This document shows, one piece after another, positions 32,905 to 60,227 of a DNA stretch of 64,000 nt (position 1 is its first letter; every line of letters begins with the position of its first letter). The DNA is taken from the NCBI GenBank assembly GCA_037447655.1, contig JBBHKE010002973.1:72158-136157 (forward strand), written 5' to 3'. The DNA comes from Zygnema cylindricum. Its lineage: Eukaryota; Streptophyta; Zygnematophyceae; Zygnematales; Zygnemataceae. A program made the position numbers and the translations under genes. The notes beneath the pieces were generated by a model. That model saw only the letters and a list, made by a program, of their open reading frames with translations, had not been told where the DNA came from and made no database searches.

Positions 32905-33045
32905 TTAGATTTGAGCTCTGCAGTTAGCGACTTTGCCACGCATGGTGAATGCGCACGAAAAAAAGTAAAATGCGCACATAAAGGAAAAATAAAATACGCA
33001 CTTAAAAGACAATATTCCTGCGTGATCGTACTTGAAATCTCTCGT

Positions 33046-33265
33046 GCATGAGCATACAACCGTGTGTAACATGCATCACACCCAGCTAGCGTTGATAGTA
33101 ATCACCAGAAAATGTATGAATCCCACTTATGTCCGATGGTCAAGACCATGACCAAAGTACAAAGAATATATACCAACCGAAATATCAATGAATTAGCCCA
33201 AGAAAGCAAGCAAACAAAAAAAAGTACAAAGACAAGTCCAGTAGGTAAAGATGAAAAACGATGGC
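33046..33265. repeat. direct repeat D1 (partner 34208-34435)
   Basis: About 215 bp, ~90% alike to D2; the pair brackets repeat X. Contains 'tgaatcccacttatgtccg'. Confidence 0.65.
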
Positions 33266-33267
33266 AT

Positions 33268-34207
33268 TCATTATTTGCGTTAGAGGCCACTAGGCCCTGA
33301 AGTCTTCAATATTCCCTACAAGAGTCCCACTAGCACACAACACACTCTCCTTAACCAATTGAAGCCGCCGAGAAAACCGGCACTCCTGAAGTTAGAAGAA
33401 TAGTGAGACAATCGACGGAAACGACGCACCAGCAATTATAAAACATAAGATTCACACGCCAGAATTCATAGACCACGGCAAGTGAGACACAGTCATGAAG
33501 GAAACCTTGCAGGTTGGCTTGCGCTAGTAGATTAGGTAAGGGCTTTAGTACAGAAAAGAGAGATAAAAAAGCTCAGAGACAACAGCTAGCCAAAGACTAA
33601 GGATCCACAGAGCGCAACCCTAACTCAAAAACTAACTCATACCATATATGCTACCGAAAATGCCAACTGAAACAAAAAGGTTCGACAAATCCGGAGAATA
33701 CAGATTTTCTAGGAAACGACAACTCTCCAATGTTGGATTCTCGTGGTGTAATTTGCAACTATTGATATGCAGCCACATGGCTTTTATCCTATGTTGTTGC
33801 CTATCGTAATGCTAAACTAATTCTTGAATGTCTTTGAGCAAGCACGTTTCTATGTGTAAACCCTGCCAGTTTCTAGAGACGGCCGATGCGTGGCCGCTCG
33901 GAATGCCTTACATCTACACCTCGAGGATAAAAACCCTCCCTACGCTGCCAAAAATAATGCATGAACCTCCGAGGGTTCACGACTTAGCCATCTGTCACGT
34001 TTGGAGCTGTTTGAGTTCCTCACAACCGATGCAGAACCGGAATCCAGTTCCACATCGATTTCCCGTTGTGTCGTACGTGAATGTAGTATGGCCTTTGATC
34101 ATATTGTACCTTCAGCTATACGCCAGATTACAAACCTATCACGTCAAATACGCGCCAATTAGTATAGGATTCAACAATAATACCCGTCGACACCTTACGG
34201 CATGACA
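33268..34207 (-). repeat. LTR-like repeat X, copy 2 (probable gypsy 3' LTR part)
   Basis: Matches 240-1195 over ~940 bp. The minus-strand start reads TGTCATGCCGTAAGG, and it lies just downstream of the gypsy H1 integrase, where the 3' LTR belongs. No convincing polypurine tract precedes it, so the LTR call is moderate. Confidence 0.5.
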
Positions 34208-34435
34208 GCTGCCGTGCATGAGCATACAACCATGTATAACATGCAACACACCTGGTTAGCGTTGACAGTAAACATCTGAAAAGGTATGAATCCCACTTAT
34301 GTCCGGTGGTCAAGACCACGACCAGCGTACAAAGAATATATACCAACGGAAATATCAATGAATCAGCCCAAGAAAGCAAACAAACAAATAAAAATACAAA
34401 GACAAGTGTTGTACGTAAAGATGAAAAAGGATGTT
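34208..34435. repeat. direct repeat D2
   Basis: Second copy of D1, lying between the PHD region and repeat X. Confidence 0.65.
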
Positions 34436-34470
34436 GCAGGGGAGCTGGTAAGGACAACAGGTAGGTCGCG

Positions 34471-34605
34471 ACATCCATGGCAAAACCACTATCCAGCTGG
34501 AATAGCGTGGAGAGGTGGAACCAAGCACTCCATATGAAATCCTACATTGCAATAGTCATACAGAAGCTTCGTCGTTTCTCCATCAGACCGCCGACACAAA
34601 TGACA
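34471..34605 (-). other. PHD finger domain (C4HC3) fused to integrase
   Basis: Ligand order C-x2-C (CHLC), [C to Y]-x2-C, H-x2-C (FHMEC), then W-F-C-x2-C (WFCHGC, past a stop). The conserved LVPPL and the Trp two residues before the last Cys pair are PHD hallmarks. PHD fingers bind histone H3 tails, often at K4. Confidence 0.8.
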
Positions 34606-35664
34606 CTCGGTGGCCTCAGTAATCAGAATCCGCCACGGATCCATGCTGCGGGAAAGATCAGGTAGGTAGTAGGGGGCACAATTTTTTGAATGTTCTCGCA
34701 AAGTTCGCGTGTCAGCCCCTTGTAGGCTTAATAATCCATTGGAGTCGATCTTTGTGATCCTCAATATGTGAGCCAAGACATGCGTGTCGAGTGTGTCAAA
34801 TGTTTGCCGACGCAAATATACATAGTCCCCCACCCGATAGGGTTTTTGTTGTGGTCGGTAACTGCCACTGCGAGTTGTTGCAAACTGTAAGTAGTCGCGA
34901 TATTGAGCAATCTGCAAGTTTCCAAAGGCCATTAGAATTTCCCTAGGAAAAAGCAAAGCCCGGTTGGTTAGTTCTTCCAAAAAAAGAGAATTAGACATAA
35001 ACGGCAAAGGAAAACTAGCGACTTTCTGTATATTTCTACCTAGTAGTGGCTGTCGACCAAATAACACATAACAGGGACTAAAATTTGCTAAGCTGGCCTG
35101 TACAGACATGCGATAACCCATGACAATATAACCCAATGATTTATCCCACACAGTGATCTGTTTCTCCAAACAATGTTTACGCAAATCCCGATTAAATGTT
35201 TGCACCGCCCTTTCGACCAAACCGTATGCCTGGGGATGATATCGACTTATTCGACGGTGATCGATCAACACCTCGTCCAACATCTCTTGAAATTCGCCAC
35301 GAAACTCGCTTCCCTCGTCTGTAAGGACTTCTGCTGGAGCTCCATATCGGAGGAGCACATGCTCCTTGAAAGCGGTTGTGGTGAGTTTCGCAGTTTTGTG
35401 CGGGAGGGCCACAACTTCCACCCATTTGCTGAAATTCCCGATCATGATCATGATGTATTGCTTGTCCCTTGGTGAGTCGGGAAAAGGACCTGCGGAATCA
35501 CACAACCACCTGTAGAAGAGACCTCCGATAGGCAAAGGTTGAAGTGTAGTCTGACGGTTAGAGAATGAGGTCCGCAACCGGTGACATGTGCTACATCCTT
35601 TTAACACAACCACCACGTCAGCTTGCATGCCTGACCACCAATAACGTGCCTGTACCAAACTCAA
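34489..35664 (-). pseudogene. gypsy H1 integrase with C-terminal PHD finger
   Basis: 391 open codons. The zinc-binding CSTC (residues 24-27) closes the HHCC domain, whose histidines lie upstream of an in-frame stop. The catalytic triad is present: D56 (CDSAGPFP), D116 (LTDEGSEF) and E151 (GLVERAVQ). A GPY/F-like module ending 'HSKNCAPYYLPDL' follows. The last 38 residues begin a PHD finger: CHLC, then LLYDYCNVGFHMEC and 'LVPPLHAIPAG'. An in-frame TAG (34489-34491) cuts it before WFCHGC. One zinc ligand is changed (LLYD for the usual LLCD). The intact protein would insert element DNA, perhaps at chromatin read by the PHD finger. Confidence 0.85.
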
Positions 35665-35940
35665 AATACGTTTGGTACCCTAATGTCCCAGATCAGTATG
35701 AATCTGATCTATAAGCAATAGGCGATCTGTTGGCCGAGGAACATGCCGATGACTTCCATCTGCGAGGAGACGAATAAGGGAACCTCCCATCCATAAGTAA
35801 TTTTGAGCTCTTTTACAAACACGCTCCTCCTCTCCTGGTAAGGTGCATGCTCGAAAGGACTGAGTGGATGAAAAGAGAACAAGAGCGCTGTTCCGCCATG
35901 GATCGTGTTTTGTTTTTTGAACTATGGGGCCCGAAAAACT

Positions 35941-36165
35941 CTAAACCAGGTGTGCTCCAGCAGACATCGATGCAACTGGTACGTCATCAAAATCGTGTCG
36001 CACTCCATTAACGGCAGAATTGGGTAAGGGGTTTCGAGAAAGATCGTCGACATTCAAACTGAGGAGCCCGGGTCGATGGATGATCTCCATATTGTATTCC
36101 TGCAAAATAAAAACCCAGCGGGCTAATTTGCCGGATAGTTTGTCATTGGTCATGAGCCAATGCAA
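35941..36165 (-). pseudogene. gypsy H1 RNase H, C-terminal piece
   Basis: Contains 'HWLMTNDKLSGKLARW' and 'LQEYNMEIIHRPGLLS', the end of gypsy RNase H where the LQE-I-HRPG-N-DxLSR pattern is typical. The middle of RNase H (36166-36306) is decayed; the same part is clean in H2 at 39051-39300. RNase H removes the RNA strand during reverse transcription. Confidence 0.8.
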
Positions 36166-36306
36166 TGGTTGATGGTCACGAATTAAATAAAAAGCTTACA
36201 AAATAAAGGGAAATGCAATTCCCCAAGAAACCCCCCTTTATAACTATATCTGTAGTTCGACTCCTTAATTATTACCGGTGGCATGTTCCATATTCTTCGC
36301 CCGAGC

Positions 36307-37203
36307 TCATTGCGTCAGGATGGCTACGATATCATTTACCAAAGTCACATTCCACACCAAAATAAATATATGATTTGGTGGACGAAGAATGGGAGTGTTG
36401 GACAGTGCTTTCTTTAATCCCTGGAATGCCTCAATCTGCGGGGGTCCCCAAGTTAACGGCACTGATTTTTTCAAGAGGTCATTTAGTGGGGATGCGAGCG
36501 TGCTGAAACAAGGAACAAACCTCCGATAATAATTTGCAAAACCTAAGAGAGCACGTAGGCTCGTTAAATCTGTTGGGGCCGGTAGTTTACTAATCGCTTC
36601 TACCTTGGCTTCTAGAGGAGTGATTCCCTCGGATGAGATAAAATGCCCGAAATATGGTACCTCTTCGGACCCGAAGATGCATTTGGCAAGATGGCATTTG
36701 AGACCCACCTTTTTCAACTCCTTTAATACCCACTCTATATGTGCTGTGTGTTCCTCTATAGAGGCTGAAGCGATGATTAAATCGTCAATGTAGCAGCGGG
36801 CAAACTTACATCCCCCTAAGACTGAGTCCATAACAATGTGAAATACGGCAGTGCATTTTTCAAGCCAAAGGGCATAACTCACCATTCCCAACGCCCATCA
36901 CTTCCCCAAAATGTAGTCTTATGTCCGTCTTTTTCCTCTATTTCAATTTGGTTAAACCCCTGTTGTAAATCTAGAATGCTAAAATATTTAGCCCCTTTGA
37001 TCAAAAGTGTCCTCTGCCAAAGGCATTGGATGTCGGTCCTGGATTGTACGAGAATTCAGTTCTCGATAGTCCCCGCACATGGGACTTTGTGTGAAATTCC
37101 CCTATGCGTCTTTTTTACGAGGCGTGAGGATAAGCGCCGCAAAGGTGGAGTCGGACCTAAAAATCAGTCTTGCCTCTTCTAACTCTGTGCATGGTTTGTC
37201 CAC
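36307..37203 (-). pseudogene. gypsy H1 reverse transcriptase (partial, broken)
   Basis: The frame 36307-36891 has the catalytic YIDD (ARCYIDDLIIAS), then 'KCHLAKCIFG', 'YFGHFISSEGI' and 'LRALLGFANYYRRFVPCF', the standard Ty3/gypsy RT thumb/connection pattern. Upstream to 37203 the palm part (matching 'SRTIQDRHPM' of H2) is shifted in frame. It ends at a junction with unrelated sequence. Confidence 0.85.
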
Positions 37204-37613: not shown

Positions 37614-38439
37614 ATGAAGGGTCAAAGTTGACCTTTTGTACAGGAGCTCTCTGGGAGAGAGGGTCTAATCAATCAAATTTTTCTAAGTCCTATCTCTCTC
37701 TAAAACTCATCTACTGAAGTAAGGCACCAATCATAATAGTGTACCGTACATAAAGGTACATGTGCCGATGTACTTTATGTACGGATATTGTACAACATGG
37801 CCAAAAAGTCGACACATGTCATTTTTGGATTCGTTCTTGGAATCCCAGGAGATGTCGTAATCCAATGTGATTGTGCCACGTGGCAATTGACGTGACGTCA
37901 ACCGCAAACCGCCGAAAACCTATTCCACGATCTCGGCATGCTTCGTGGCCGTCTGATTAAGCCGGGTTACAATCGTGACCGTCATAAATACTTCCGCAGT
38001 ATTTCTTGCGCTTTCTAAAGAAATGCGCATTATTCGTTTTGAATGTTCCGTACGCCGTACTTTACAAACTGTATCTATGTTTAAAGATCCCGTTAAATGA
38101 AATATATTACGTGTTAACATTTAATTAACTATCAAACCATACACCTCCAAGCATGATGGCAAACTAAATGGCTAAGGCTACAGGCTAAGAGTGGACGGTA
38201 GGTACCCGGTTCAAATTCTGGGTCCGTCAATTTATATTTTGGTAAATCTACCAAAATCTACAACCCGTAACTCTATCTTTAATCAGCATAGGCAACCATG
38301 GCTCTAGCTCCCTCTTCAACCTTCAGTGACTACGACAAATGTGGGAGCTGAAGAGAGAAGTTAGAGGCAGACTGCCTCTGCTTCTTTTCTGCATTTTGCA
38401 AAACCTAGAAAATACTAAAATAACTTTTTTATTTCTACA
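37614..38439 (-). repeat. truncated copia LTR (A-family-like) in gypsy integrase
   Basis: The minus-strand start TGTAGAAATAAAAAAG at 38439 abuts gypsy H2 integrase sequence. It aligns with the A-family LTR down to the segment 'gggtcaaagttgacctttt' at 37618. The LTR 3' end is missing. A plus-strand tRNA-like block lies near 38163-38228 and a hairpin near 38310-38355. Confidence 0.7.
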
Positions 38440-38725
38440 ACCACTTGTAGAAGAGACCTCGGATAGGCAAAGGTTGAAGTGTTGTCTGGCGGTTAAAGAA
38501 GGAGGTCCACAACCGGTCATATGTGCTACATCCTTCTAACACGGCCGCAACCTTCGCCTGCATGCATGACCACCAATAACGTGCCTGTACGAAACTCAAA
38601 GTCCGTTTAGTACCATAATGTCCCAGATCAGTATGAATCTGATCGATAAGTGATAAGCGTTCTGTCGGCCGAGGAACATGCCGATGACTTCCATCTGCGA
38701 GGAAATGGATAAATGAACCTCCCAT
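38440..38725 (-). pseudogene. gypsy H2 integrase N-terminal part
   Basis: Holds the HHCC-type zinc region ('HTDLGHYGTKRTLSFVQARY', then CSTYDRL with the last Cys changed to Tyr) and ends at 'PIRGLFYKWL', just before the first catalytic Asp. The remainder is replaced by an LTR fragment, so no PHD finger can be checked for this copy. Confidence 0.8.
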
Positions 38726-38843
38726 CCATAAGTAATTTTGAGCTTTTTTACGAACACGCTCCTCCTCTCTTGGTGTGGTGCCTTTTCGAAAAGACTAGGT
38801 GGATAAAAATAGGACCAGAGCGCTGTCCTGCCATGGATCGTAT

Positions 38844-39671
38844 TCAGTTTTGTGAACTCTGGGACGCGAAAAAATTGTAGACCAGGTGTGCTCCAATAGA
38901 CAGCGATGCAAGTGGTTCGTCATCAAAATCTTGTCGCACTCCATTATCGACAAAATTGGGTAAGGGGTTTCGGGAAAGACCATCAGCAATCAAACTGAGG
39001 AGCCCGGGTCGATGGATGATCTCCATATCGTATTCCTGCAAATTAAGAGCCTAGCGGGCTAACTTGCCAGATAGTTTGTCATTGGTCATGAGCCAATGCA
39101 ATGGTTGATGGTTAGTAAGAAGAGTAAAAGGCTTGCCATAAAGGTAATGGCGGAAATGCACAATTCCCCAAACTGCGGCCAAGCACTCCCCACTACTATA
39201 GTTCGACTTTGCTTTATTGTTGCTTCGACTAGCATAAGCCACCACATATTCCTCACCTGTAAGCTCACGCTGAGTTAGGATGGCGGCGATTACAGGCTTA
39301 CCAAAGTCTGTCCGTAGGCAAAATGGTAACTTAGGATTCGGTGGACCGAGAATGGGACCGGTGGAGAGTGCTTTTTTTAATCCCTGGAATGCCTCAATTT
39401 GCGGGGGTACACAAGTAAACAGCGCTGATTTTTTCAAGGGTTCATTTAGTGGGGATGCGAGCATGCTAAACCCAGGAACAAACCTTCGATAATAATTAGC
39501 CAAACCTAGGAATGCACGCAGGCTTGTTAAATCTCTTGGGGCCAGTAGTTTACTGATCGCTTCTACCTTGGCTTCTAGCAGAGTAATTCCCTCGGATGAG
39601 ATAAAATGCCTGAGATATGGTACTCTTTCAGCCCCGAAGATGCATTTGGCAGGATGGCATTTGAGACCCAC
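38844..39671 (-). pseudogene. gypsy H2 RT thumb, RNase H and linker
   Basis: The frame 39051-39671 runs from RT ('KCHPAKCIFGAERVPYLRHF', 'LRAFLGLANYYRRFVPGF') into RNase H: 'LRTDFGKPVIAAILTQ', 'YASRSNNKAKSNYSSGECLAAVWGI' and 'LTNHQPLHWLMTN' carry the usual D-E-D layout, with the first Asp in RTDFG. A stop (39048-39050) splits it from 38844-39041 ('MQEYDMEIIHRPG'). Confidence 0.85.
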
Positions 39672-40300
39672 CTTTTTGAACTCTTTTAATACACATTCTA
39701 TATGTGTTGCGTGTTCTTCTATAGAGGCTGAAGCAATGATTAAATCGTCAATGTAGCAACGGGTAAACTTTCATCCCCTTAAGATTGAGTCCACAACCTT
39801 TTGGAATACGGCCAGTGCATTTTTCAAGCCAAAGGGCATAACTAACCATTCCCAACGCCCATCACTTCCCCAAAATGCAATCTTATGTCAGTCTTTCTCC
39901 TCTATTTCAATTTGGTTAAACCCCTGTTGTAGACCCCGAATGCTGAAATATTTAGCCCCTCCGATGTGATCAATAATGTCCTCCGCCAAAAGCATTGGAT
40001 GACGGTCCTGGATTGTACGGGAATTCAGTTCTTGATAGTCCCCGCACATGCAACGTACTGTGAAATTCCCCTCGGCGTCTTTTTTACAAAGCATGACGTT
40101 AGGCGCCGTAAAGGTGGAGTCAGACCTATAAATCAATCCTTCCTCTTCTAACTCTGGGCATCGTTTGTCCAATGCTTCCTATTCGCTTTGTGATAGACGA
40201 TGCTTGGGTTTGAATATGGGTCTTTCATCTTCCAAGTCAATGGACATTCGGTAAGTGGTGTGTCGACCTAAATCTTTCATGGAGTAAGCGAACGCGTCTT
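39672..40300 (-). pseudogene. gypsy H2 reverse transcriptase palm/fingers
   Basis: 39888-40172 encodes 'LEEEGLIYRSDSTFTAPNVM', 'GDYQELNSRTIQDRHPM' and 'GGAKYFSIRGLQQGFNQIEI', the first RT motifs. YIDD follows in another frame near 39745. Upstream (to ~40300) the RT start resembles 'MSIDLEDERPIFKPKHRLSQ', with one stop. RT copies element RNA into DNA. Confidence 0.85.
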
Positions 40301-40800
40301 TGTGTTGGTTTATGACATTGTCTAACAGTTCGTGTTCCGGTTTCCTTAGTCACCTCCCAAATTTTCAGGTTGGTTTTTCAAGTGCGTTGATGGTAATGGT
40401 TTCAATGACCTGTACAAACGCTAGTTGTTCATCCGTTATTAGGGAATATCCCAATTCATACTCAGTTAAAAGCTGATGCAAACAATTCACTGCATGATGC
40501 CAACTTCTAAATGGAAATGTAGCTGTCTAGTGTGGTGTTGCGCGTACCGGCATCTGAGACCTAGCCCCTGTGTATGCAAGGATGGACCAACTCATGTGAC
40601 CGGGTTCCAAGAAATCGTAAATAGTGTAATTTGTGTCAAACTTGGAGGAAGGAAAGAGAGAAAGCTGAAAAGTTGTACCCCGGAGAAAAGGTGAGGATTT
40701 TGATGCAGTCTGTTTAAATGGTATATTCCCCCCCCCAGCTGGTTGAGACACATGATTCTGTGCATATCGACCAGCTACAAACCCTATGCCCAAGACAAAT
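40301..40800 (-). other. linker between methyltransferase and RT of H2
   Basis: No clear domain. The frame 40527-40793 ('LGIGFVAGRYAQNHVSQPAG') continues from the region where the methyltransferase C-terminus (motifs IX-X) is expected, but I cannot assign motifs securely. Confidence 0.4.
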
Positions 40801-42056
40801 GAGAGTGATTGGGGATCTATGACCTGACGAAGTAATGTGCAGCGTTGCCGCTTAATGAGTCTTGGGGCAGCAGTGGTGCCTGGGATGAAATGGAGTAGGT
40901 GTTTTCGCTTTGCAGCGGTAATTTTCTTCTAGACTGCCCGTATGCGTGTTCTGAAGCATACCAGGTCCGTTATGTGAATATGCGTGAGAGTTTGTGTATG
41001 GGACTAATGTAGGAAGTGCACGTAACGGTTAGCCATTGGTGTTAAGACAAAATGCAGGAGGATAGTCTAACTAGACACATGTCTGTACCTTATGAAGTGG
41101 AGAAGTGCTTCTTGAATGGAAATTTTAGGTGGTCAAACAACGAGGTTAGCTTCTCGGAGCCGGCCTATGTCAACCAAATTTGTCCACTTGAAACGAACTC
41201 GACGTGCCAACGATCCATGACGTGCAGCGTCGATAATTAGTGGCGGTCCAATTGATGATTCAATGCGTTTCTAGTATGCGAGAACTGTAGGTCTGGGTCA
41301 TTATGAGTTACGACGTTTTCTAAGACGTATCCAAAGGGGTGGTTTAGTGACTGAAAGAAATGGATAAGACGCACTACCTCAAAGAACAGTTAAGTGCGCG
41401 GATCTGCTAAACCTAAACCTAACCCTTCCTAGCTCAAGACATACCGTGACATTCCCATCCTGCGAAAATGAGGTCGATTCGTTCTAACTCTGCCAAATGT
41501 TGATTACCTATGAGACGGATATACTGTGGTAAAACTAAATGCATGTTGTGAAAAGCGGACTGCGGTAAGAGGTGAGGGTATCGTTCATGTAAGATTTGAC
41601 AGTTGTGCCACTTAGCGCGTCTTGCCAAAGGGTCAATATCTATAGAAAAATACTGCTTGATTAGAATACCGTTCCTAAGGCAAGAGAGAAGTGTGGTACC
41701 TATTCCTGCAAAAAGGTCTAAGATAACGAGACCTTTTAGGTTAGGTTGTAAGCTGACCGATTTCCATTTAATGGGGGAAAACCCGAAAGGATCTATTGCA
41801 ATAGCGGGTGGATCCGGAATACTGAATAAAGGAATTGGTACTGTGAACATATACAATCTGTCAAAATTTGAAGAGTCAATAATAAAACCTGGGGTGCCAA
41901 ATAATTCCGGCATTCTCGGGGGGTCTGGTAAGATTTCTTCCGCTGTTAAAGATTCAAAAATATCAACACCTATGCCAACTGCAGCATAGGCTGGCAAGAC
42001 AAACGCCGAATGAGCGTAGTAGGCATGGGTTGCCTGGCCGAGATACATGGTAAGCA
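40801..42056 (-). pseudogene. DNMT3/DRM-like cytosine-5 DNA methyltransferase domain in gypsy H2
   Basis: The family transfers a methyl group from S-adenosylmethionine to cytosine C5. Seen here: motif I DLFAGIGTT (frame residues 122-130 of the open stretch 41434-42081), motif II SIDIDP (146-151), and motif IV IDLIFAGWECHGMS with the catalytic Cys codon at 41449-41451. A stop follows; further motifs are in shifted frames: motif VI 'GYVLENVV' (ENV at 41312-41320) and a motif VIII-like AARHGSLARRVRFKWTN (41178-41228), which resembles DNMT3 'RARYFWGN'. It lies between the protease linker and RT, so it was part of the polyprotein. The copy is dead: stops, at least two frameshifts, and a copia insertion at its N-side. 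Confidence 0.85.
41402..41426. repeat. short AAACCT repeat inside methyltransferase
   Basis: Three tandem telomere-like units lie directly after motif IV and add stops on the minus strand. They look like a local expansion. Confidence 0.55.
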
Positions 42057-42061
42057 AACTT

Positions 42062-43110
42062 TGAAACTCTGAGACCTCCATAAGTCCTCAGAGTGGACAG
42101 CTTCCAAGAAGCCTCTAGGATAATCCTGACCCCTTTGTGTTTAAGCAAAAATAACTGCCACCCTGACAGACAAAAACTCTGACCAACTTCACCCCTGTGA
42201 AGACAAGACTCCCCTGAGTCGATAGCAAAAAGAATCTCTGAATTTGCTCCCCTGAGCAGTAAGTTATGGAGGGTCAAAGTTGACCTTTTGTACAGAAGCT
42301 CTCTGGGAGAGGGGATCCTATCTTCTAATTTTTCTAAGTCCTATCTCTCTCACAGACTCTATCTACTGATGTACGGAACCAATCAGAATTGAGTTTCGTA
42401 CGCAAAAGTATAGCTGCCGGTGTACTTTATGTACGGATATTGTACGACATGGCCAAAATGTCGACACATGTCAAATCCGGATTCGGTGCCATAATCTCCG
42501 CAGATTCCACAATGCAACGGAATTTCGCCACGCGTCATCCGATGTGGCGATGGCCACAAACCGCCGAAATCTTCCTCTGCGATCTCGGCGCTAATCCCGG
42601 CCGTCCGATTAAATTCGGCTTTAATCGTAGCCGTAATAAATACATGCGCGGTATTTGTTTCATTTACGAAACAAATGCGCGGTACTGATTTGTGTCCGTA
42701 CCGTAAGTCGTACATTATATATTACTGGATCTATGTATCCCGTAATTCATTTCAGTTAAATGGTTTATCGCTTGTATACATATGTAAATAATTATCAAAC
42801 TATATGCTAGGTAACACTACCGCTAGATTAAACGGCTAAGGCTACCGGCTACTTCGTGTCTGCTGGCCGGCAGGTACAAGGATCAAATCCTGCCGCCGGC
42901 ACATACATTTTAATTAAATATATAAACCCTAATATAAAATTCCCGTAAACCTCAGGATAGCCAAGGTAGCCATGGCTCTAGCTTCCTCTCCAATTTCTCA
43001 GTGACTGCGACAAATTTGAGAGTCGCAGAGAGAATTTAGAGATAGACTGCCTCGACTTCTATATTTCTTTGCAGACCTAGAAAATACTAATAAAACCATT
43101 AGTTTGTACA
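42062..43110 (-). repeat. element A 3' LTR
   Basis: The minus-strand start is TGTACAAACT at 43110, right after the polypurine tract; it ends at 42062. Plus-strand tRNA-like block near 42826-42902. Confidence 0.93.
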
Positions 43111-43123
43111 CTCCCCTTATTTT
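43111..43123 (-). promoter_or_regulatory. polypurine tract of element A
   Basis: AAAATAAGGGGAG on the minus strand, directly before the 3' LTR. Confidence 0.85.
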
Positions 43124-45712
43124 CTAGTCAATCTTTAATTTCAGACCACACTTCTCCCTGCAAAAAATTAGCTTAGGGGAAGGCACAGGTTTGGTCATCA
43201 TATCTGCTACCATCTCACTATCTGGTCTGTACTCTAAACTGATTATTTTGTTTTCTACTTTCTCTCTAACAAAGCTGAGTCTGATGTCCATGTGTTTGGC
43301 TTTAAAATGGTGTTTAGGATTGGCAGAAATAGCAATTGCTGCCTGATTATCACAAAATATTTTCTGCACACCACTCTTAAGGTGACCAAGCTCACCAAGC
43401 AAAGACTTGACCCACATCAATTCTTTTACAGCAGAGCAAGAGGCCATATACTCAGCCTCCATGGTGGACTGAGCAATAACCTTTTGCTGTTTGCTACTCC
43501 AACAGCAAGCCCCATCACCCACATATAATACATATCCAGAAGTACATCTCCTCATTGGAGCATCACCATAACTGGCATCACTCCAAGTAGTGATGTCAGT
43601 ATTCTCCCCACCCAAATGAAACCATAGATCTCTAGTTCCTACCAAGTATCTAAGGACTCTCTTAGCTGCCTCCCAATCCTTCTTAGTGGGAGCATTTAGA
43701 CTTCTACTCAGCACTCCTACAGCTGCAGCTAAATCCGGCCGGGTACAATTCATAAAATAGATTAGACTTCCCACTACTTGCCTGTAAGGAATAGTCTGCA
43801 TGAACTTCTGTTCTTCAGGAGATAATTCCTCGTCTAAGACTATGACTCCTTCTTCCTCACTCCCCTCACTTCCCTTCTTCAATTCCATTGGAGTTGTACA
43901 ACTATTAGCTTTATCCATTTGAAATTTTTCAAGCATGTTCCCTATTGCTTCCTTTTGAGTCAATCTTATAATTTTCCTTTTTCGGTCTCTCTCTACTTGA
44001 ATTCCCAAAATATATTTTGCTTCCCCCATATCCTTCATTTCAAATCTCCCCTTAAGATCGGTTTTCAGTTTATTAATTTTTTCCATTGATTTACTTAAAA
44101 CAAGCAAATAATCAACATAAATTGCAATAAATATAAAACCTTCCTCATCTTCGAAAACATAGATTGAGTGATCTGAGCTGATCCGGATATATCCTAGACC
44201 GGTAAGAAACTCATCAAGCTTCTTATTCCACTGTCGGGGCGCCTGTTTCAAACCATAAAGAGATTTAATCAGCCGGCATACCTTACTCTCCTCTCCTTCT
44301 TCCACAAACCCTTTGGGTTGTCGCATGAAGATCTCCTCTTCTAATTCTCCATGCAAAAAGGCTGTTTTGATGTCCATCTGGTGCACTTCCATGTCTTCCG
44401 CCGCTGCTAAACTGAGAAGTATGCGGACGGAGGGAAATCTGACCACCGGGGCAAAGGTTTCCTCGTAGTCAATTCCTTCATTTTGTGTAAATCCCTTTGC
44501 CACTAATCTGGCCTTGTAGCGCTCGATTGTGTTATCTAGGTTCAGTTTTAGTTTGAAAACCCACTTACAACCGATTGGTTTTCGGTTAGGTGGACAGTCC
44601 ACCAGCTCCCAAGTATCGGCTGCCATGATTGAAGCCATCTCCTCATTGATGGCTGTCTTCCACCGGTTTCTTTCTGGACAAGTCATCGCCTCTCGATAAG
44701 TTTGAGGTTCATCTTGATGAGATAATTTAGTTACCTTGTTATTAACCTGTTTTTCTTGCAGTCTTTTGCTACTTCTCCTCCCTCCCTCAAAATCTGAGGC
44801 CGGAATAGATGGTTCTCGTGGATTCTTTCGAACAAACTCGGCTTCTCCCCTATCCCTTGATTCCGAATCAATTTCCACCACGTCTTCCGCTTCGAGTAGA
44901 GTTGTCACTGGAGTTTCCACAGCCGAGTCCTTTTCGGTCTGATTTGTTCCTGCAAGAATGTCATCGTCTCTAAAACCTGGATAGTTAGGAAGCTCAAAGT
45001 CATCATAATTTTCTGACTCAAATCTGATTTTTACTGACTTTGTATATTTGAAGGGATCCACAGACTTTCCTTCATCCATAACTACTAGATGCTTTACTAA
45101 GATTATATCTTCTCTTTTTAGATCATAAACTCTATATCCTTTAACATCCTCATCATATCCTAATAAGTATCCCGGTTTTCCTTTAGGATCTAGCTTCCAA
45201 TTGGACCGATCAGTATCTAGACTGAATACTTGACTGCCGAAAACCTTTAAATGAGATAAGTCTGGTTTCCAGCTTGTCCATCTCTCATAAGGTGTTTGAT
45301 CTTTTATAGCTGAAGTAAGAACTCTATTTTTGAGGTAATTAGCACAGTTCATTGCTTCTGCCCAAAACCTTTTTCCTATCTTCTTATCCGACAACATACT
45401 TCTAGCACTATCACTTAGTGTTCTATTTAACCTTTGAGCTACCCCATTCTGTTCAAGATTTTCTGGCACTGTCTTTTGGTGTTGAACCCCATCTTCCCTC
45501 AAAAAATCCTCAAACTGGTTAGAAGTATACTCTCCACCATTGTCACTCCTTACTCTCTTGATTGGAGTTTCATGGAGTTTTTCGCTCCATGCTTTATATT
45601 GTCTAAAACAGTCCTCAGCCTCTGACTTGTTTTTCAAAAAATATACTCGGGAATACCGAGACCAATCATCAGTTATAGTCATCATAAATCTCTTCCCCCC
45701 CGGTGAGGGCAC
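43124..45712 (-). CDS. element A Pol: integrase core, RT and RNase H
   Basis: 862 open codons. The integrase core has TDDWSRY (~residues 12-18), SDNGGEY (~54-60) and the Glu region PENLEQNGVAQRLNRT. A charged linker follows. RT begins near residue 380 ('ERYKARLVAKGFTQNEGIDY') and includes 'MDIKTAFLHGELEEEIFM'. The active-site box reads YVDY instead of YVDD (codon at 44108-44110); the related element C keeps YVDD. RNase H includes CTSGYV, QSTMEAEYMA and 'HMDIRLSFVREKV'. It ends 'KCGLKLKID' next to the polypurine tract. The lost Asp should abolish polymerase activity. Confidence 0.92.
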   Translation of the reverse strand: MPSPGGKRFMMTITDDWSRYSRVYFLKNKSEAEDCFRQYKAWSEKLHETPIKRVRSDNGGEYTSNQFEDFLREDGVQHQKTVPENLEQNGVAQRLNRTLSDSARSMLSDKKIGKRFWAEAMNCANYLKNRVLTSAIKDQTPYERWTSWKPDLSHLKVFGSQVFSLDTDRSNWKLDPKGKPGYLLGYDEDVKGYRVYDLKREDIILVKHLVVMDEGKSVDPFKYTKSVKIRFESENYDDFELPNYPGFRDDDILAGTNQTEKDSAVETPVTTLLEAEDVVEIDSESRDRGEAEFVRKNPREPSIPASDFEGGRRSSKRLQEKQVNNKVTKLSHQDEPQTYREAMTCPERNRWKTAINEEMASIMAADTWELVDCPPNRKPIGCKWVFKLKLNLDNTIERYKARLVAKGFTQNEGIDYEETFAPVVRFPSVRILLSLAAAEDMEVHQMDIKTAFLHGELEEEIFMRQPKGFVEEGEESKVCRLIKSLYGLKQAPRQWNKKLDEFLTGLGYIRISSDHSIYVFEDEEGFIFIAIYVDYLLVLSKSMEKINKLKTDLKGRFEMKDMGEAKYILGIQVERDRKRKIIRLTQKEAIGNMLEKFQMDKANSCTTPMELKKGSEGSEEEGVIVLDEELSPEEQKFMQTIPYRQVVGSLIYFMNCTRPDLAAAVGVLSRSLNAPTKKDWEAAKRVLRYLVGTRDLWFHLGGENTDITTWSDASYGDAPMRRCTSGYVLYVGDGACCWSSKQQKVIAQSTMEAEYMASCSAVKELMWVKSLLGELGHLKSGVQKIFCDNQAAIAISANPKHHFKAKHMDIRLSFVREKVENKIISLEYRPDSEMVADMMTKPVPSPKLIFCREKCGLKLKID

Positions 45713-46091
45713 TCTAGCTGGTCCCCAAATATCTGTGTGTACTAGATCTAGAAGTTTTTCTCCCTTGTAGGTGGCTGTTTTTGGAAAGGGTAATCTGTGT
45801 GCTTTACCTTGAGCACACCCACTACAATCAGTTATATCATCACTCTCACTGAACTAAATCCCTTCCACCACTCCCATCTTTTTCATCTCTCTTAACTTAT
45901 CTAGATTCACATGCCCAAGCCTCTTATGCCACATCATAATATCATGAACACCAGCATAATAAAGTTTCTTCGTTTCATTACTTAAGATCAGCCTAAACAT
46001 CCCATGGCTACCTTTCTCAGCAATGAAATAGACATCCTCCTCAAAACTAGCAGTAAAGACTCCTTCCCTAGTGCTAGTGAAAAAACCCTTA
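45713..46091 (-). pseudogene. element A GAG-pre-integrase and integrase start (broken)
   Basis: Encodes the WHKRLGH ... CSGCAQG zinc region seen intact in D (63465-63752), here with an in-frame stop near 45855 (a TAG in the G-I-x-F-S-E segment) and a frame break at 46092. These breaks prevent one continuous Gag-Pol. Confidence 0.8.
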
Positions 46092-46739
46092 TCATCTAAT
46101 TAATGATGTAGAGATAAGGTTTTTGTTCAGCTCCGGAATAAACAATACATCGGAGAATGTTAATATGGATGTCTTTCCTTCTACTAACACTTTCAGATCT
46201 ACCGATCCTACAAGAGTAGTGGTGACTATCCTCCCATCCCCGTACTCTATCTCTACGGTGGGAATCTTTCTTATCTTAGTGAACAGGTGTCTATCCTTAC
46301 ACATGTGCATTGAGGCACCTGAATCTATAATCCAGCCTGCTTCACCTTTCAATCCACCGTAAGCACATTTCTGCCTTCGTGGAATTTCAACCTCAGTTTT
46401 CGCCTCCAACTCCTCATCCAAAAGGAGCTCATCGTCCTCGTCCTCGGATTCCGCCTCAAGTACCTGTGTGACAAGGGCCTTTTTCTTTCCTCTCGGGGTA
46501 CCACCGGTCTGCCCCTCCTTTAACCGAAGCTCGGTTAGCTTGGTGCACTCTGCCATATAGTGCCCCGGTTTCTTACAAAAATGACATAAACCTTTGGGAG
46601 CCCTTGGTTCGAACTCGCCAACCTGTTTTTTCTGCTCCCTACCCCCATAATTTCCGACTGGTTTTCCGAGAATCCTTGTTCCTCCAATCGGTCGCTGTTG
46701 CCAAGGCTTGGCCACTTTTTCCTCCCCTTCGGATCTCAA
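46092..46739 (-). CDS. element A Gag C-part with zinc knuckle, and protease
   Basis: Zinc knuckle CHFCKKPGHYMAEC (CX2CX4HX4C) near residue 52, a Glu/Asp-rich linker (AESEDEDDELLLDEELEA), then the aspartic protease motif WIIDSGASMHM (Asp ~residue 139) and 'FSDVLFIPELNKNLISTS'. It overlaps 46639-47484 in another frame; elements C and D read both in one frame, so this is a frameshift mutation rather than a programmed shift. The protease would cut the polyprotein. Confidence 0.88.
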   Translation of the reverse strand: MRSEGEEKVAKPWQQRPIGGTRILGKPVGNYGGREQKKQVGEFEPRAPKGLCHFCKKPGHYMAECTKLTELRLKEGQTGGTPRGKKKALVTQVLEAESEDEDDELLLDEELEAKTEVEIPRRQKCAYGGLKGEAGWIIDSGASMHMCKDRHLFTKIRKIPTVEIEYGDGRIVTTTLVGSVDLKVLVEGKTSILTFSDVLFIPELNKNLISTSLIR

Positions 46740-47484
46740 TCGTATTCTCTCGAACGAGAATCATCCCTACCACTGAGTTCCATATCCACCTTGAGTCCGG
46801 CAAGTCCTGCACACGGTTGACTATGTTCTCGAACTCATCAGGTAACTTCATTAGTAAACAGTTAACTTTTTCTTTTTCACTAAAAACTTTACGCGCACTC
46901 TCTAGCTCCATGAAGAGTGTAGCAAGCTCATTGCAAAAATCCAACATATTTCCCCCTTTGTATACATACTCCTTAACTTTCTGATCAGCCAACTGTTGTT
47001 GTTGAATCGTACCACTTCGGTACATCTCTATGAGAGCCATCCAAAGATCGGATGCCCTCTCTACCTGCAAATGAGGACATGCAAGTCCTTGAGTGAGATG
47101 GCGTAGGATGAAGTGCTTTGCCGCCATATTGTTGAAGTCCCAGGTTTCAGTATCATTCTCCTCGTTCCTCGGAATAGGTGACATGAATGCTAAACTAGTT
47201 GCTATTGGTGTGGTCGCCTCCTTCTCCTTTCCTTTGTCCACCACCTCTCCTTCCTTTGTTTCCTCCGTTGAACGTGAATCCTCTTTCCTGGTGAATCTGC
47301 TTCCTTTAAACCCTGGAGGAATTCCAAGAATTGATGGACGCCCCAATCGTCCACTCACTATCCCCCAAAACCTTTTTTCGCATAGAGCTCCTATCATCAT
47401 ACTTTCCCAGTATATGAAGCCAGTTCCATTAAAGATTGGTACCCTAGAGGGTGGGCCCATAACCTGAAACTCTGAGACCTCCAT
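46639..47484 (-). CDS. element A Gag N-part
   Basis: 281 codons. The start ATG (47484) lies inside the 5' LTR; the frame crosses the LTR/PBS border as MEVSEFQ-VMGPPSR. 'FIYWESMM' is the copia Gag N-terminal motif. The middle holds an acidic/charged insert and 'WDFNNMAAKHFILRHL'; the later 'MLDFCNELATLFMELES' and 'LLMKLPDEFENIV' belong to the UBN2-type Gag core. It forms the particle shell. Confidence 0.88.
   Translation of the reverse strand: MEVSEFQVMGPPSRVPIFNGTGFIYWESMMIGALCEKRFWGIVSGRLGRPSILGIPPGFKGSRFTRKEDSRSTEETKEGEVVDKGKEKEATTPIATSLAFMSPIPRNEENDTETWDFNNMAAKHFILRHLTQGLACPHLQVERASDLWMALIEMYRSGTIQQQQLADQKVKEYVYKGGNMLDFCNELATLFMELESARKVFSEKEKVNCLLMKLPDEFENIVNRVQDLPDSRWIWNSVVGMILVRENTIEIRRGGKSGQALATATDWRNKDSRKTSRKLWG
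47450..47464 (-). promoter_or_regulatory. PBS of element A (half-tRNA-iMet type)
   Basis: GGTTATGGGCCCACC on the minus strand, directly after LTR end GTTTCA. Complementary to GGTGGGCCCATAACC, the anticodon arm of plant initiator tRNA-Met as I recall it. Confidence 0.75.
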
Positions 47485-48512
47485 AAGTCCTCAGAGTGGA
47501 CAGCTTCCAAGAAGCCTCTAGGATAATCCTGACCCCTTTGTGTTTAAGCAAAAATAACTGCCACCCTGACAGACAAAAACTCTGACCAACTTCACCCCTG
47601 TGAAGACAAGACTCCCTTGAGTCGATAGCAAAAAGAATCTTTGAATTTGCTCCCGTGAGCAGTAAGTTATGGAGGGTCAAAGTTGACCTTTTGTACAGAA
47701 GCTCTCTGGGAGAGGGGGTCCTATCTTCTAATTTTTCTAAGTCCTATCTCTCTCACAGACTCTATCTACTGATGTACGGAACCAATCAGAATTGAGTTCC
47801 GTACGCAAAAGTACAGCTGTCGGTGTACTTTATGTACGTATATTGTACGACATGGCCAAAATGTCGACACATGTCAAATCCGGATTCGGTGCCATAATCT
47901 CCGGAGATTCCACAATCCAACGGAATTTCGCCACGCGTCATCCGATGTGGCGATGGCCACAAACCGCCAAAATCTTCCTCCGCGATCTCGGCGCTAATCC
48001 CGGCCGTCCGATTAAATTCGGCTTTAATCGTAGCCGTAATAAATACATGCGCGGTATTTGTTCATTTACGAAACAAATGCGCGGTACTAATTTGTGTCCG
48101 TACCGTAAGTCGTACATTATATATTACTGGATCTATGTATCCCGTAATTCATTTCAGTTAAATGGTTTATCGCTTGTATACATATGTAAATAATTATCAA
48201 ACTATATGCTAGGTAACACTACCGCTAGATTAAACGGCTAAGGCTACCGGCTACTTCGTGTCTGCTGGCCGGCAGGTACAAGGATCAAATCCTGCCGCCG
48301 GCACATACATTTTAATTAAATATATAAACCCTAATATAAAATTCCCGTAAACCTCGGGATAGCCAAGGTAGCCATGGCTCTAGCTTCCTCTCCAATTTCT
48401 CAGTGACTGCGACAAGTTTGAGAGTTGGAGAGAGAAGTTAGAGATAGACTGCCTCGACTTCTATATTTCTTTTCAGACCTAGAAAATACTAATAAAACCA
48501 TTAGTTTCTACA
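47465..48512 (-). repeat. element A 5' LTR
   Basis: 1048 bp, TG...CA. On the minus strand it begins TGTAGAAACTAATGG. It contains the hairpin at 48382-48439, a plus-strand tRNA-like block at 48230-48303 and the GTAC cluster at 47693-47848. Confidence 0.93.
47693..47848 (-). promoter_or_regulatory. GTAC cluster in element A LTR
   Basis: Seven GTAC words in 156 bp (47693, 47774, 47801, 47811, 47825, 47834, 47845). The same layout is in the LTRs of B, C, D and G. GTAC is the core recognised by plant SBP-domain transcription factors; a regulatory role is inference. Confidence 0.45.
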
Positions 48513-48517
48513 AACTT

Positions 48518-49500
48518 TGCAGTTTGGAAAATTGTTTGGTCTATACGAAAATGTTTGATGATGCATATCAACCCCCCCCCCCTACTCGGAAAATGACGTC
48601 TTCGCCGACCAAGCACTCATAATCACTACAATTGGTGACCAAGGCGTGAGCGTATATTTCTGTGAAATCGGATTGTGATTGACACTAAAATTGAAAACAG
48701 AGTGGTTCTTTTGTCATACCTAGGACTGGTTCTGTGGTTCTTGCAGAAGTCAACAAACGAGTGGTAGTGGGTTGTAGTGTATCTGCGGTAAGACATATTT
48801 TCTTGGCAAAATCTTATCTGAGGATAATGGGTTTCGCCCCTGTGTCCAAGAGAGGTAAAGCTGGGGCCACCCCATTAACTGTGAACAAACCTAACTTGTT
48901 ATCCAAAAACCTGATGTGTGGAGTAAGAATGGAACGCTCTTTGAGAGTAATCGCTTGAAGAGATAGGGTACTACGATGGTTTTGAAGCACTTGTAATGCA
49001 TGTGCAGATTGAGTTAAATCTGAGGATTTAGCCTCGTTATTCGATTCGGGAAGCATAGTGGACAGTATTGCTAACTGTTCTATGACCTTATAAGCATCTT
49101 ATATACTCCCCTCTAGAATGGTTAAGGCCTCAGCAGTGATGCTAAAGGTTGTTTCCGGGATAAGGGTTTTAGGTTCTTTAGCGAAAGATAATGGTATGCA
49201 AGTGTTAATGGATTTAGACTCACGATTATGATCGGGAGTCCTTTTGAAAAGAGCTGCTCGCTGTTGGACGGTTGACTCTCGGAGAGATTGCCCAAGAAAA
49301 GAGGGTATATGGACTGCGGTTCGGGCCATTCCATTAATTGCAGTTTGACCTGCGCCATAAGCGGGGCAAACTGCTCCTTCATCATGGCCGCCATGGTTGC
49401 CTGCATCTCTGCTTTGTCTCAGTCCCTTCTACTGATTTTGGTGGGAGTGTCCTTCTCTTCCCCTTTCGGTGGAGTGACCAATTTAGCCGAGCAAGCAGGT
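48518..49500 (-). pseudogene. gypsy H2 Gag remnant and protease
   Basis: Gag-like start 'MQATMAAMMKEQFAPLMAQV' (49406), with the frame broken several times; no zinc knuckle remains. The protease motif LLDTGAKPIILR has DTGA at 48835-48846, followed after a stop by 'DFAKKICLTADTLQP' and 'TTEPVLGMTKEP', typical of gypsy retropepsins. A linker resembling 'FSYRPN' leads to the A insertion at 48518, beyond which the methyltransferase continues at 42056. The gag 5' part is lost. Confidence 0.8.
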
Positions 49501-49553
49501 ATACCAATTAGTATAAGAATCAACAATAATACTCGTTGACGTCTTGCGGTATG
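49500..49553 (-). repeat. 54 bp of repeat X (gypsy LTR start) beside gag
   Basis: The minus strand TGTCATACCGCAAGACGTC matches the start of X at 34207. It abuts gag without the remainder of the LTR or a PBS, so a deletion has fused the LTR start to gag. Confidence 0.6.
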
Positions 49554-49862
49554 ACATTGCATAATTTGCGATGGAAAAACCATCAACCTAAAAGCGCATA
49601 TCATCGTGACGTAACGATTTTACTTGCCTGAAATCTTGGAATCATGTTGCACTGTTGGTAGGGCTACGGACCGTACATTAGGGTTAGATTCTATGACCAA
49701 AAGAACCAATCTCAAGAATCTCGATCGATCTCTGCCACAAGAGTAAGCTCCCACGTGTGACAACTCACCCTTGTAAAAAAACGCGAAAACTTGATCCTCA
49801 TAAAATCCTACCTTGAGCATTTAATCGATTTCATTCGCTGCTGCGTTTAGGCGTAGAGTAAG
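49554..49862. other. unassigned sequence
   Basis: Nothing recognised. Confidence 0.3.
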
Positions 49863-52646: not shown

Positions 52647-53698
52647 TGTAGAAATTAATGGTTATTTTTAGTATTTTCTAGATCTAAAATGAAAGGCAGA
52701 AAAGAAGCTGAAGCAGTCTGCTTCTAACTCCTCTCTTCAGCTCCCACACCTGTCGCAGTCACTGAAAGTTGAAGAGGAAGCTAGAGCCATGGTTGCCTAT
52801 GCTGCTTAAGAGATAAAGTGACAAGTGGTAGATTTTGGTAGATTTACCAAAATATACTTGATCGACCCATGATTTGATCGTGGTACCTGCCGTCCGTCAT
52901 GTCTCAAATAGACAATAGCTTTATCCTAAAGACTAAGAATCGGTGGTGAGACCTATAGGGTTTGACAAATATATAAACCGTGAAGCGTGAACTAATTCAT
53001 TTAACTGAAACTATAGACGTCGCACATGGATACAGGTTTATAAATTACGAAGCGATATGGTTCCGAAACGGATACCACGCATTTTGTTTCGACAACAAAA
53101 CAAAAAACATGCAACGATTTATGACGGCTACGATTAAAACCCGGTTTTGATCAGACGGCCGCAAAAGATGTCGAGATCGCAAAATAGGATTTTGGCGGTT
53201 TTCGATTATCGCCACATCAATTGACACGTGACACGACCACATTGGATTACGGCATCTTCGGGAATTAGAGGATTGAATCCAGATATGACATGTGTCGACT
53301 AGTTGGCCATGTCGTACCATGGCCGTATAGAAAGTACACCGACCCCAGTACCTTTCTGTACGACACAGTATTTTGATTAGTGTCGTACTTCAGTGGATAG
53401 AGTTTTAGAGAGAAAAAGGACTTACGAAAATTTGGTAGATAGGATCCTTTCTCCCAGACAGCCTATGTACAAAAGGTCAACTTTGACCCTCCATAACTTA
53501 CTACTCAGGGAAGCAAATTCAGATATTATTTTTGCTATCAACTCAAGGGAGTCTTACCTTCACAAGAGTGGAGGTGGTCAAAGTTTTTGTTTGCCAGGGA
53601 GGCAGTGTTTTTTGTTGAAACACAAAAGGGTCTGGGTTATTATAAAGGCTTCGTGTGAGCTGCTTACTCAAAGGGCCAATGGAGGTCTCAGAGTTGCA
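52647..53698 (+). repeat. element B 5' LTR
   Basis: 1052 bp, TGTAGAAATT...TTGCA. Minus-strand tRNA-like block near 52862-52935; hairpin at 52728-52784. Confidence 0.88.
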
Positions 53699-53818
53699 AG
53701 TTATGGGCCCACCATCTAAGGCGCCCATCTTTAATGGAACTGGATTCATATACTGGGAGAGTATGATGACAAGATCTCTATGTGAGAAAAGGTTTAGGGG
53801 AATAGTGAGTGGACGGGT
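53679..53818 (+). pseudogene. element B Gag start (cut by C)
   Basis: Starts at ATG 53679 inside the LTR: MEVSELQ then VMGPPSKAPIFNGTGFIYW and 'CEKRFRGIVSGR', as in element A. Truncated after about 47 codons by insertion of element C. Confidence 0.8.
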
Positions 53819-54874
53819 TGTAACTTTGAGACCTCCATAAGTCCTCAGAGTGGACAACTTCCAAGAAGCCTCTAGGATAACTCTGACCCCTTTATGTTTC
53901 AGCAAAAACAACTGCCACCCTGGCAGACAAAAACTCTGAACACTTGCACCCCTATGAAGGCAAGACTCCCCTGAGTCGATAGCAAAAAGAATCTTTGATT
54001 TTGCTCCCCTGAGCTGTAAGTTATGGAGGGTCAAAGTTGGCCTTTTGTACAGAAGCTCACTGGGAAAGAGGGTCCTATCTCCTTATTTTTCTGAGTCCTA
54101 TCTCTCTCACAAACTCTATCTACTGATGCACGGAACCAATCTGATTACAGTTCCGTACGCAAAAGTACAGGTGCCGGTGTACTTTATTTACGGACATTGT
54201 ACGACATGGCCTAAATGTCGACAGATGTCATATCCGGATTCGGTGCCATAATCTCCAGAGATACCACGATCCAATGTAATTTCGCCACGTGTCATCCGAT
54301 GTGGCGATGGCCACAAACTGCTGAAATCTTCTTCCGCGATCTCGGCGCTAATTTTGGCCGTCTGATTAAATTCGATTTTTAATCGTAGCCGTAATAAATA
54401 CATGCGCGGTATTCGTTTCACTAAAGAAATAAATGCGATGTATTGATTTTTTGTCCGTACCGTAATCTGTACTTATACATTACTGGATCTATGTATCCCG
54501 TAAACAATTATAGTTAAATGATTTATCCTATGTATTTCTGTTTTAATAAATATCAAACCATACACTACGTAACATTAGTTCTAAACTTAATGGCTAAGGC
54601 TACCGGCAAACTGCTGTCTGCCGGCCGGTAGGTACCAGGATCAAATCCTGTGGCCGGCACATACCTTTAAGTAAATAAACCCCTAACTAATATAAATTTC
54701 CCGTAAACCTCTGGATACCTTAGGTAGCCATGGCACTAGCTCCCTCTCCAATTTCTCAGTGACTACGACAAGTTTGAGAGTTGGAGAAAGAAGTTAGAGG
54801 TAGATTGCCTCGGCTTCTTTCTATATTTCTATTTAGACCTTGAAAATACTTAAAATGGACCATTAATTTCTACA
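53819..54874 (-). repeat. element C 3' LTR
   Basis: 1056 bp. The minus-strand start TGTAGAAATTAATGG at 54874 follows the purine tract AAAATAAGCGGAG. Confidence 0.88.
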
Positions 54875-54887
54875 CTCCGCTTATTTT

Positions 54888-56684: not shown

Positions 56685-56895
56685 AGCCGAGTCCTTTTCG
56701 GTCTAATTTGTATCTGCAAGAATGTCATCTTCTCTAAAACCTGGATAGTTAGGAAGCTCAAAGTCATCGGAATTTTCTGACTCAAATCTGATTTTTACTG
56801 ACTTTATATACTTGAACGGATCCACCGACTTTCCTTCATCCATAACTACTAGATGCTTTACTAAGATTATATCTTCCCTTTTTAGATCATAAACT

Positions 56896-57894
56896 TGTTG
56901 AAATAAGTAGTTTTTGTATTTTCTAGTTTAAAATAAAATTAGCATAAACATATATAAGAAATGATGGAAGCCTGCCTCCATCTCTTCTCTCTTTCCCCCA
57001 TACTTTTTGTAGTCACTGAAGGAGAGAGAGAGCGATGGAGCCATGGCTGCCCCTGCTCCATAGGAAGGACTAAAGAGTGACTTAAATCACTCTCAACAAA
57101 AGGTTGAGTCCGGCAGGACTCGAACCCCCGACCAGTAGAGCGCGGCGTAGCCGTTAGCTCTAACCAGTCTGTCGTAGAAGTCCCTTAGATGATATAGGGT
57201 TTCATTCATAAACTATTGTATAGTACCGAAATGATCTAACTGGAATATGAAACGAAACAAACATAGAACTTGTTAAGGTTTAGTGCAAACGTCATTTCGC
57301 ACGAAACAAATGAAACAGACACTTTGAACCGTCGACATTTAATGTCAGATTTAATCCGACGGCGCACGTCGTCACCGAGATCGCGGAATGGTCACTTTGG
57401 ATTTTATGGACGTGGCATGACGTGGCTCCGCGTGGAAGGATGACATTCGGTCACGGGAATTCCGGAGGAAATACGAACAAGTGGAAAAATGACACGCGTC
57501 CACTCAAGAGCATTGTCGTACACCGGCCGTACAGAAAGTACATCCGCCATAGTACCTTTCTATACTCTACAGTAATACGATTGGTTCATACTTTAGTAGA
57601 TAGGGGTTGTGAGAGGGATTTAGGACTTAGGAAATATTTGGTAGATAGACACCTCTCTCTAAGAGAGCTTTGTATAAATTGGCATTTTTTGCCGACTCAT
57701 AACTTATCGCCTGGTTGGCCGTTTTCAGTGATTCTTTTTGCTACAGACTCAAGGGAGTCCAAGCTGCACAGGGGTGCTGTCAAATTGTCAGTGTGCCTTC
57801 TTCGGCAGAATTGGTCGTGGCTTAAAGTGGGTTAGTTAAATAGTATCTAGAGGCTTCCTGTATTCTGTAGTCCAATGGAGGACACAGAATTGCA
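56896..57894 (+). mobile_element. solo LTR of the G family inside element C
   Basis: 999 bp, TGTTGAAATAAG...GAATTGCA, with perfect AAACT duplications at 56891-56895 and 57895-57899. It splits the copia coding sequence, which resumes as in element A on removal. A minus-strand tRNA-like block lies at ~57104-57172 with perfect box B (57116-57126). The last bases encode MEDTELQ before CA, so this family also starts Gag inside its LTR. Confidence 0.93.
57104..57172 (-). other. tRNA-like block in G-family solo LTR
   Basis: Minus strand: box A-like GGTTAGAGCTAACGG, box B GGTTCGAGTCC, and arms CCGGCAGGACTC/GAGTCCTGCCGG around it. Antisense to the LTR. Confidence 0.55.
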
Positions 57895-57899
57895 AAACT

Positions 57900-59077: not shown

Positions 59078-59098
59078 GGAGGCACCTGAATCTACAAT

Positions 59099-60223: not shown

Positions 60224-60227
60224 AACC

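Follow-up and report, generated by a model that had tools for sequence, protein, structure and literature searches.

A decayed DNMT3-like methyltransferase domain in a predicted Ty3/gypsy polyprotein of Zygnema cylindricum

Retrotransposons are targets of DNA methylation, and elements that bear a DNA-methylating enzyme of their own challenge this picture. The kind is already known from KnitGypsy-Dnmt3 of Klebsormidium nitens, the closest known element, which we compare by its text description only: as described there, an unrearranged Dnmt3-type methyltransferase (MTase) lies in a gypsy Pol, the repeats are DIRS-like, and several copies exist, all of which hold for the Zygnema cylindricum element reported here (PMC5890265). 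The accessible text of that paper reports purifying selection on KnitGypsy-Dnmt3 (Ka/Ks < 0.2), in line with the low omega of the Zygnema MTase, and no methylation by the Klebsormidium enzyme in yeast, a result its authors called inconclusive; a PHD finger (0 occurrences), target duplication, and an ECQ motif, all three found in the Zygnema element, go unmentioned there (PMC5890265). SymbioDIRS-Dnmt3 of dinoflagellates, according to the same text, also shares with the Zygnema element a retrotransposon Pol that contains a Dnmt3-type MTase, A-B-A-B repeats, and the occurrence of two domain orders, but integrates via a tyrosine recombinase, whereas the Zygnema element has a DDE integrase and 4-bp target site duplications (TSDs) (PMC5890265). 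In the portions available, other papers report DNMT3 borne by Copia and DIRS elements in streptophytes and dinoflagellates (PMC12344493, 2025) and N4/N6-type methyltransferases on DNA transposons of Ectocarpus and other algae (PMC12477816), and a 2019 opinion describes land plants as being without transposon DNA methylases (PMC6338049).

The window, that is, the whole stretch of Z. cylindricum DNA analyzed here, spans 64,000 nucleotides. On the minus strand at 42060-40731, a C5-cytosine methyltransferase is readable, spread over several frames. The read-through MTase matched PF00145 (E 2.8e-7, above the profile cut-off), DNMT3A in the PDB (E 1.5e-8), and a phage DNA-methyltransferase profile (E 1.9e-10); when its longest uninterrupted open segment (41437-42081) was searched by itself, there was no PF00145 match. 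With these PF00145 and DNMT3A matches, the DNMT motifs and coordinates proposed in a sequence-only reading of the window hold. We placed the domains by tblastn of L009, a relative from the same genome, domain by domain (Table 1).

Table 1. Features of the two gypsy copies in the window and of the copia element nested in copy 2
Feature	Position	Strand	Evidence
Gag C-terminal part of 5'-truncated element copy 2	49084..49565	-	tblastn to L009, 57-79% identity
Aspartic protease domain (LLDTGA), copy 2	48574..48933	-	tblastn to L009, 82% identity, E 2e-63
Copia retrotransposon inside copy 2, foreign to the gypsy element	42062..48512	-	LTR pair and AACTT on both sides
DNMT3-like C5-cytosine methyltransferase domain, frameshifted, motif IV = ECH	40794..41757	-	tblastn with L009 domain, E 2e-103, three pieces
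Ty3/gypsy reverse transcriptase (RT), copy 2	39477..40226	-	tblastn to L009, 84% identity, E 7e-140
RNase H, copy 2	39063..39476	-	tblastn to L009, 86% identity
Integrase start, copy 2, interrupted by copia-like LTR	38441..38851	-	tblastn to L009, 82% identity
RT and RNase H of second, 5'-truncated gypsy copy (copy 1)	36127..37203	-	tblastn to L009, 69% and 54% identity; 84% DNA identity to copy 2
Integrase (H2C2 and DDE core), second copy	34867..35916	-	tblastn to L009, 84% identity; rve and H2C2 Pfam matches in relative
PHD finger, C-end of second copy's polyprotein	34447..34641	-	tblastn to L009, 86% identity; PF00628 E 2.7e-10 in L009
Terminal repeat B1, second copy	34213..34433	-	88.7% identical to 33043-33263; layout by analogy with own-genome copies
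Terminal repeat A2, second copy	33272..34205	-	88% identical to 253-1185; 73% identical to A repeat of L009
Terminal repeat B2, second copy	33043..33263	-	Partner of B1; layout by analogy with own-genome copies

Once the copia element is set aside, copy 2 reads gag C-end, protease, MTase, RT, RNase H, and integrase start, all on the minus strand. The copia LTRs (42062-43110 and 47465-48512) are 98% identical, an AACTT TSD flanks the insertion, and blastn of the window against an uninterrupted own-genome relative, whose frame also holds RT, was colinear across it with 80% identity over 3.6 kb. The tblastn placements, the TSD, and this colinearity confirm the earlier proposal that the MTase sits between a gypsy protease and RT. 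Judged by its sequence, the segment at 41757-40794 is what is left of the MTase domain, broken by frameshifts, of a Ty3/gypsy polyprotein. Transposon insertions into a host DNMT gene could likewise leave a DNMT3-like sequence within a region rich in transposable elements, but we reject this reading on the colinearity and give it next to no weight; moreover, the places examined elsewhere in the genome repeat this arrangement of domains.

The second gypsy copy (37203-33043, minus) continues through integrase and a PHD finger and ends in repeats B1-A2-B2. Earlier assignments of 33272-34205 as a leader or as an LTR were dropped, and the segment is now read as repeat A2. Elsewhere in the window, 37614-38440 is similar to the LTRs of the copia element, several additional copia copies and LTRs of related sequence lie at 52647-64000, either nested or inverted, and an Rfam search found one tRNA and nothing else.

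Searching the Zygnema genome (352.8 Mb, 2,689 contigs) with PF00145 gave 123 scored matches from 782 candidates, all 123 above the cut-off; part of these may be host genes. We examined 20 distinct places out of the 123 (L001-L022, with L005 lying within L014 and L006 within L020), all selected via the MTase, 14 of them fetched at 10 kb mostly for their long open frames. With L007 left aside (no frame of 150 aa), the remaining 19 places form 2 families: family A (n = 11: L004, L009-L011, and L013-L019), with motif IV reading ECQ in 11 of 11, and family B (n = 8: L001-L003, L008, L012, and L020-L022), with PCQ. One family-A copy is a single frame of 2395 aa with two zinc-knuckle motifs, protease, MTase, RT, RNase H, H2C2, rve, and PHD; by Pfam, the zinc knuckle and protease fall below the cut-offs (Asp_protease_2 in L009), and the other domains lie above. 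The remaining family-A copies are interrupted by stops or frameshifts, some keeping long frames that span protease, MTase, and RT. The family-A order is gag-protease-MTase-RT-RNase H-integrase (Pfam in one relative, motifs in the others), and the order protease, RT, RNase H, integrase, with an H2C2 and DDE integrase, was found in one family-A and one family-B copy (Pfam, protease below cut-off). RT matches around the places chosen by their MTase sit downstream of it, which is not independent evidence given that selection, with three exceptions: copy 1 of the window (5'-truncated), L015 near its end (2 bases of room), and L023 (38% identical, 1,468 bases of room).

Of the ten family-A places retrieved at 10 kb, seven (L009-L011, L013, L016, L017, and L019) showed a PHD finger, which in L009 lies at the polyprotein C-end; in the family-B copy L020, the match was below cut-off (E 0.0039). 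A histone-reader-type module at the integrase C-end recalls chromoviruses, in which, as generally described, a chromodomain follows the integrase; the Zygnema element has a PHD finger in its place, plus the MTase. We found no description of a PHD finger together with an MTase in gypsy elements in the titles, abstract starts, and term counts of the open literature (figures unseen), and to that extent the PHD finger is new.

Selection was estimated under a GY codon model with one omega value per tree. Among 9 family-A copies each, omega was 0.080 for MTase, 0.095 for protease, 0.089 for gag, and 0.019 for RT; RNase H and integrase (8 family-A copies each) gave 0.030 and 0.046, and the PHD finger (6 copies) 0.057. 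By this measure, conservation of the MTase is similar to that of gag and protease and weaker than that of RT, and including family B (15 copies) raised its omega to 0.109. Pairwise NG86 estimates, from which saturated or near-identical pairs were left out, had a median of 0.158 for the MTase (5 of 36 pairs usable, range 0.047-0.214) and 0.029 for RT (3 pairs usable). Because of the 2395-aa frame, the family-A domain order, and this dN/dS of 0.08, the MTase is, on sequence grounds, a conserved polyprotein domain of the element. The suggestion that the element encoded the enzyme within its polyprotein gains support from the single frame, the long protease-MTase-RT frames, and the low omega.

Three protein searches gave 26 proteins in total. 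By precomputed Pfam annotation, 15 of the 16 long metagenome proteins join a DNMT3-like MTase to a gypsy-type RT, RNase H, or integrase, and 8 of the 16 carry a PHD. As far as the literature searched goes, these 15 proteins with their two domain orders are new, and because of them, the earlier description of such capture as rare looks too strong. In P0011 the MTase lies ahead of RT, as in the window element, and in P0012 a protease is followed by the MTase and then, we infer, by RT. The MTase comes after RT in P0010 and in ten others (P0013, P0014, P0016-P0019, and P0022-P0025), and P0015, P0020, and P0021 have MTase and integrase only. The remaining long protein, P0026, is a polyprotein of copia type in which a DNMT3-like domain lies between a gag zinc knuckle and a protease-like motif; its match is weak (E 2.4e-6) and its motif IV is PEC. 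The short protein P0005 matched one bacterial-type chain only in the PDB (E 0.0099), the structure predicted for one relative from the metagenomes was of low quality (pLDDT 50), and IMG/VR scans found no relatives.

In an MTase tree of 26 rows, those labeled as having MTase before RT (4 of family A, 2 of family B, P0011, and P0012) form one side of a branch (support 96/97), the other 18 rows including 7 of unknown domain order and the copia row. An RT tree of 19 rows (8 vs 11) gives the same split (100/99), so that one change of domain order suffices; both trees are without an MTase-free gypsy outgroup, and the copia branch is very long. Judging from less decayed relatives, found both in this genome and in metagenomes, the MTase is a conserved part of a wider element class.

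DNMT3 enzymes were the best solved matches in the PDB (E 1.2e-10 for L009 and 2.3e-14 for L006); matches to DRM2 (E 0.0018) and DNMT2 (E 0.16-0.26) were far weaker, and those to DNMT2-type tRNA enzymes had E values of 0.11 or worse. A methyltransferase acting on RNA (the genomic RNA of the element or its primer tRNA) instead of DNA was raised for a LINE-borne enzyme in the text available from de Mendoza et al. (PMC5890265); for the Zygnema enzyme we consider it improbable, the DNMT2-type tRNA enzymes matching so much more weakly than DNMT3. Animal DNMT3A/B are its best solved relatives by sequence, yet L009 is without an ADD or PWWP Pfam match, its PHD lies at the distant end of the polyprotein, and family A has ECQ.

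The motif order I-IV-VI-VIII-IX-X is unrearranged, and the EN of motif VI and the R-x-R and WTN of motif VIII are conserved in the 19-row alignment; the ECQ-type state of motif IV, motifs IX and X, and the PHD finger of the neighboring copy go beyond the sequence-only reading. Motif IV has the Pro-Cys of DNMT3 in family B and departs from it in family A, which is why we call the enzyme DNMT3-like; the retained catalytic Cys is not independent evidence, since the own-genome rows were picked with patterns containing Cys. ECQ in 11 of 11 family-A places is new within the literature we searched. With ECQ in place of PCQ, the enzyme could be altered, and it might be conserved without methylating DNA any longer, serving as a scaffold that binds DNA or cofactor, or acting as a dominant-negative partner to a host DNMT. 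Such a role would fit the proline-to-glutamate change at every distinct family-A place and in the window copy, the ECQ of two metagenome proteins outside family A (P0015 and P0019), and the at least three changes, gains or losses, that ECQ requires on the MTase tree, but it sits poorly with the conserved residues of motifs VI and VIII and with family B, which retains PCQ in the same genome; we judge it unlikely. In our view, the MTase probably acts on DNA at some point in the life cycle of the element.

Ten places were taken with flanks for the analysis of element ends, which were worked out in four (L009, L013, L017, and L019). A pair of A1/A2 repeats was identified in 5 of the 10, with identities of 100, 99.6, 99.5, 96.3, and 80.3% (the last in L011), and was not found in L010, L016, L018, or the family-B places L012 and L020. 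Plain LTRs at both ends were not what the four copies showed; their layout is A1-internal-B1-A2-B2, in which A measures 931-1475 bp and B 190-243 bp and the two B repeats are 99.5-100% identical, and B1/B2 pairs are present too in L010, L011, and copy 1 of the window. Each of the four starts with TGTCATGC and ends with GCACGACA, so that TG..CA ends and 4-bp TSDs (TTGG, AAGG, CCCT, and CCCC) occur in 4 of 4 family-A copies, the blast-defined start having been shifted inward by 1 or 3 bases in two of them. The combination of A-B-A-B repeats with such ends and TSDs is, as far as our searches go, new. The A1/A2 identity of 96.3-100% in the four copies shows that the element lineage was recently active. 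In these same copies, a run of 9 to 12 G lies at or just before B1.

DIRS elements have A-B-A-B-type split repeats but use a tyrosine recombinase. The Zygnema element shares the split direct repeats of the DIRS/PAT type and departs from it in integrase and target duplication: the L009 frame gave no recombinase Pfam match and contains an rve integrase. Assignment to DIRS was rejected on this retroviral-type integrase and the TSDs.

We put the probability at about 0.88 that the window holds the decayed MTase domain of a gypsy family with the polyprotein gag-protease-MTase-RT-RNase H-integrase-PHD. For the element cycle, we propose a mechanism in which the protease would release the MTase, along with RT, within the particle. 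The MTase would methylate cytosines either in the newly made cDNA or in chromatin at the insertion site, and the methylated copy may thereby escape being taken as foreign or may acquire a chosen chromatin state. The PHD finger may guide the integrase to nucleosomes bearing a particular histone H3 tail. The A1-internal-B1-A2-B2 layout could be that of a gypsy element whose LTR is B+A, circularly permuted through an integrase that joins ends at the B|A joint. The presence of reader and writer in a single polyprotein suggests that the element itself determines the chromatin state where it inserts, and the split repeats combined with target duplications pose a separate question on the mode of integration. 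It is an even bet that the element belongs to a widespread class of "reader-writer" gypsy elements, with a DNMT3-type writer and a PHD reader in one polyprotein, DDE integration at a split-repeat joint, an MTase in either of two pol positions, and repeated change from PCQ to ECQ. With more than 100 PF00145 matches, young copies, and two families with different catalytic motifs, the role of the enzyme is testable in the Zygnema genome.

Family B differs further at the junction of protease and MTase. In seven rows (L001, L002, L003, L006, L008, L012, and L020), which are 6 of the 8 distinct places, TAG CAA TTC ends the protease frame and the MTase-RT frame comes next; L021 has TAG TAA TTC at the same junction, and no such junction was seen in L022. 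Leaky stops of plant viruses have a similar context, and this resemblance suggests possible stop-codon readthrough in family B. As far as we could find, a second family whose MTase is preceded by TAG CAA TTC is new. Near position 2097 on the minus strand of L035, a family-B-like junction has AAA instead of the stop.
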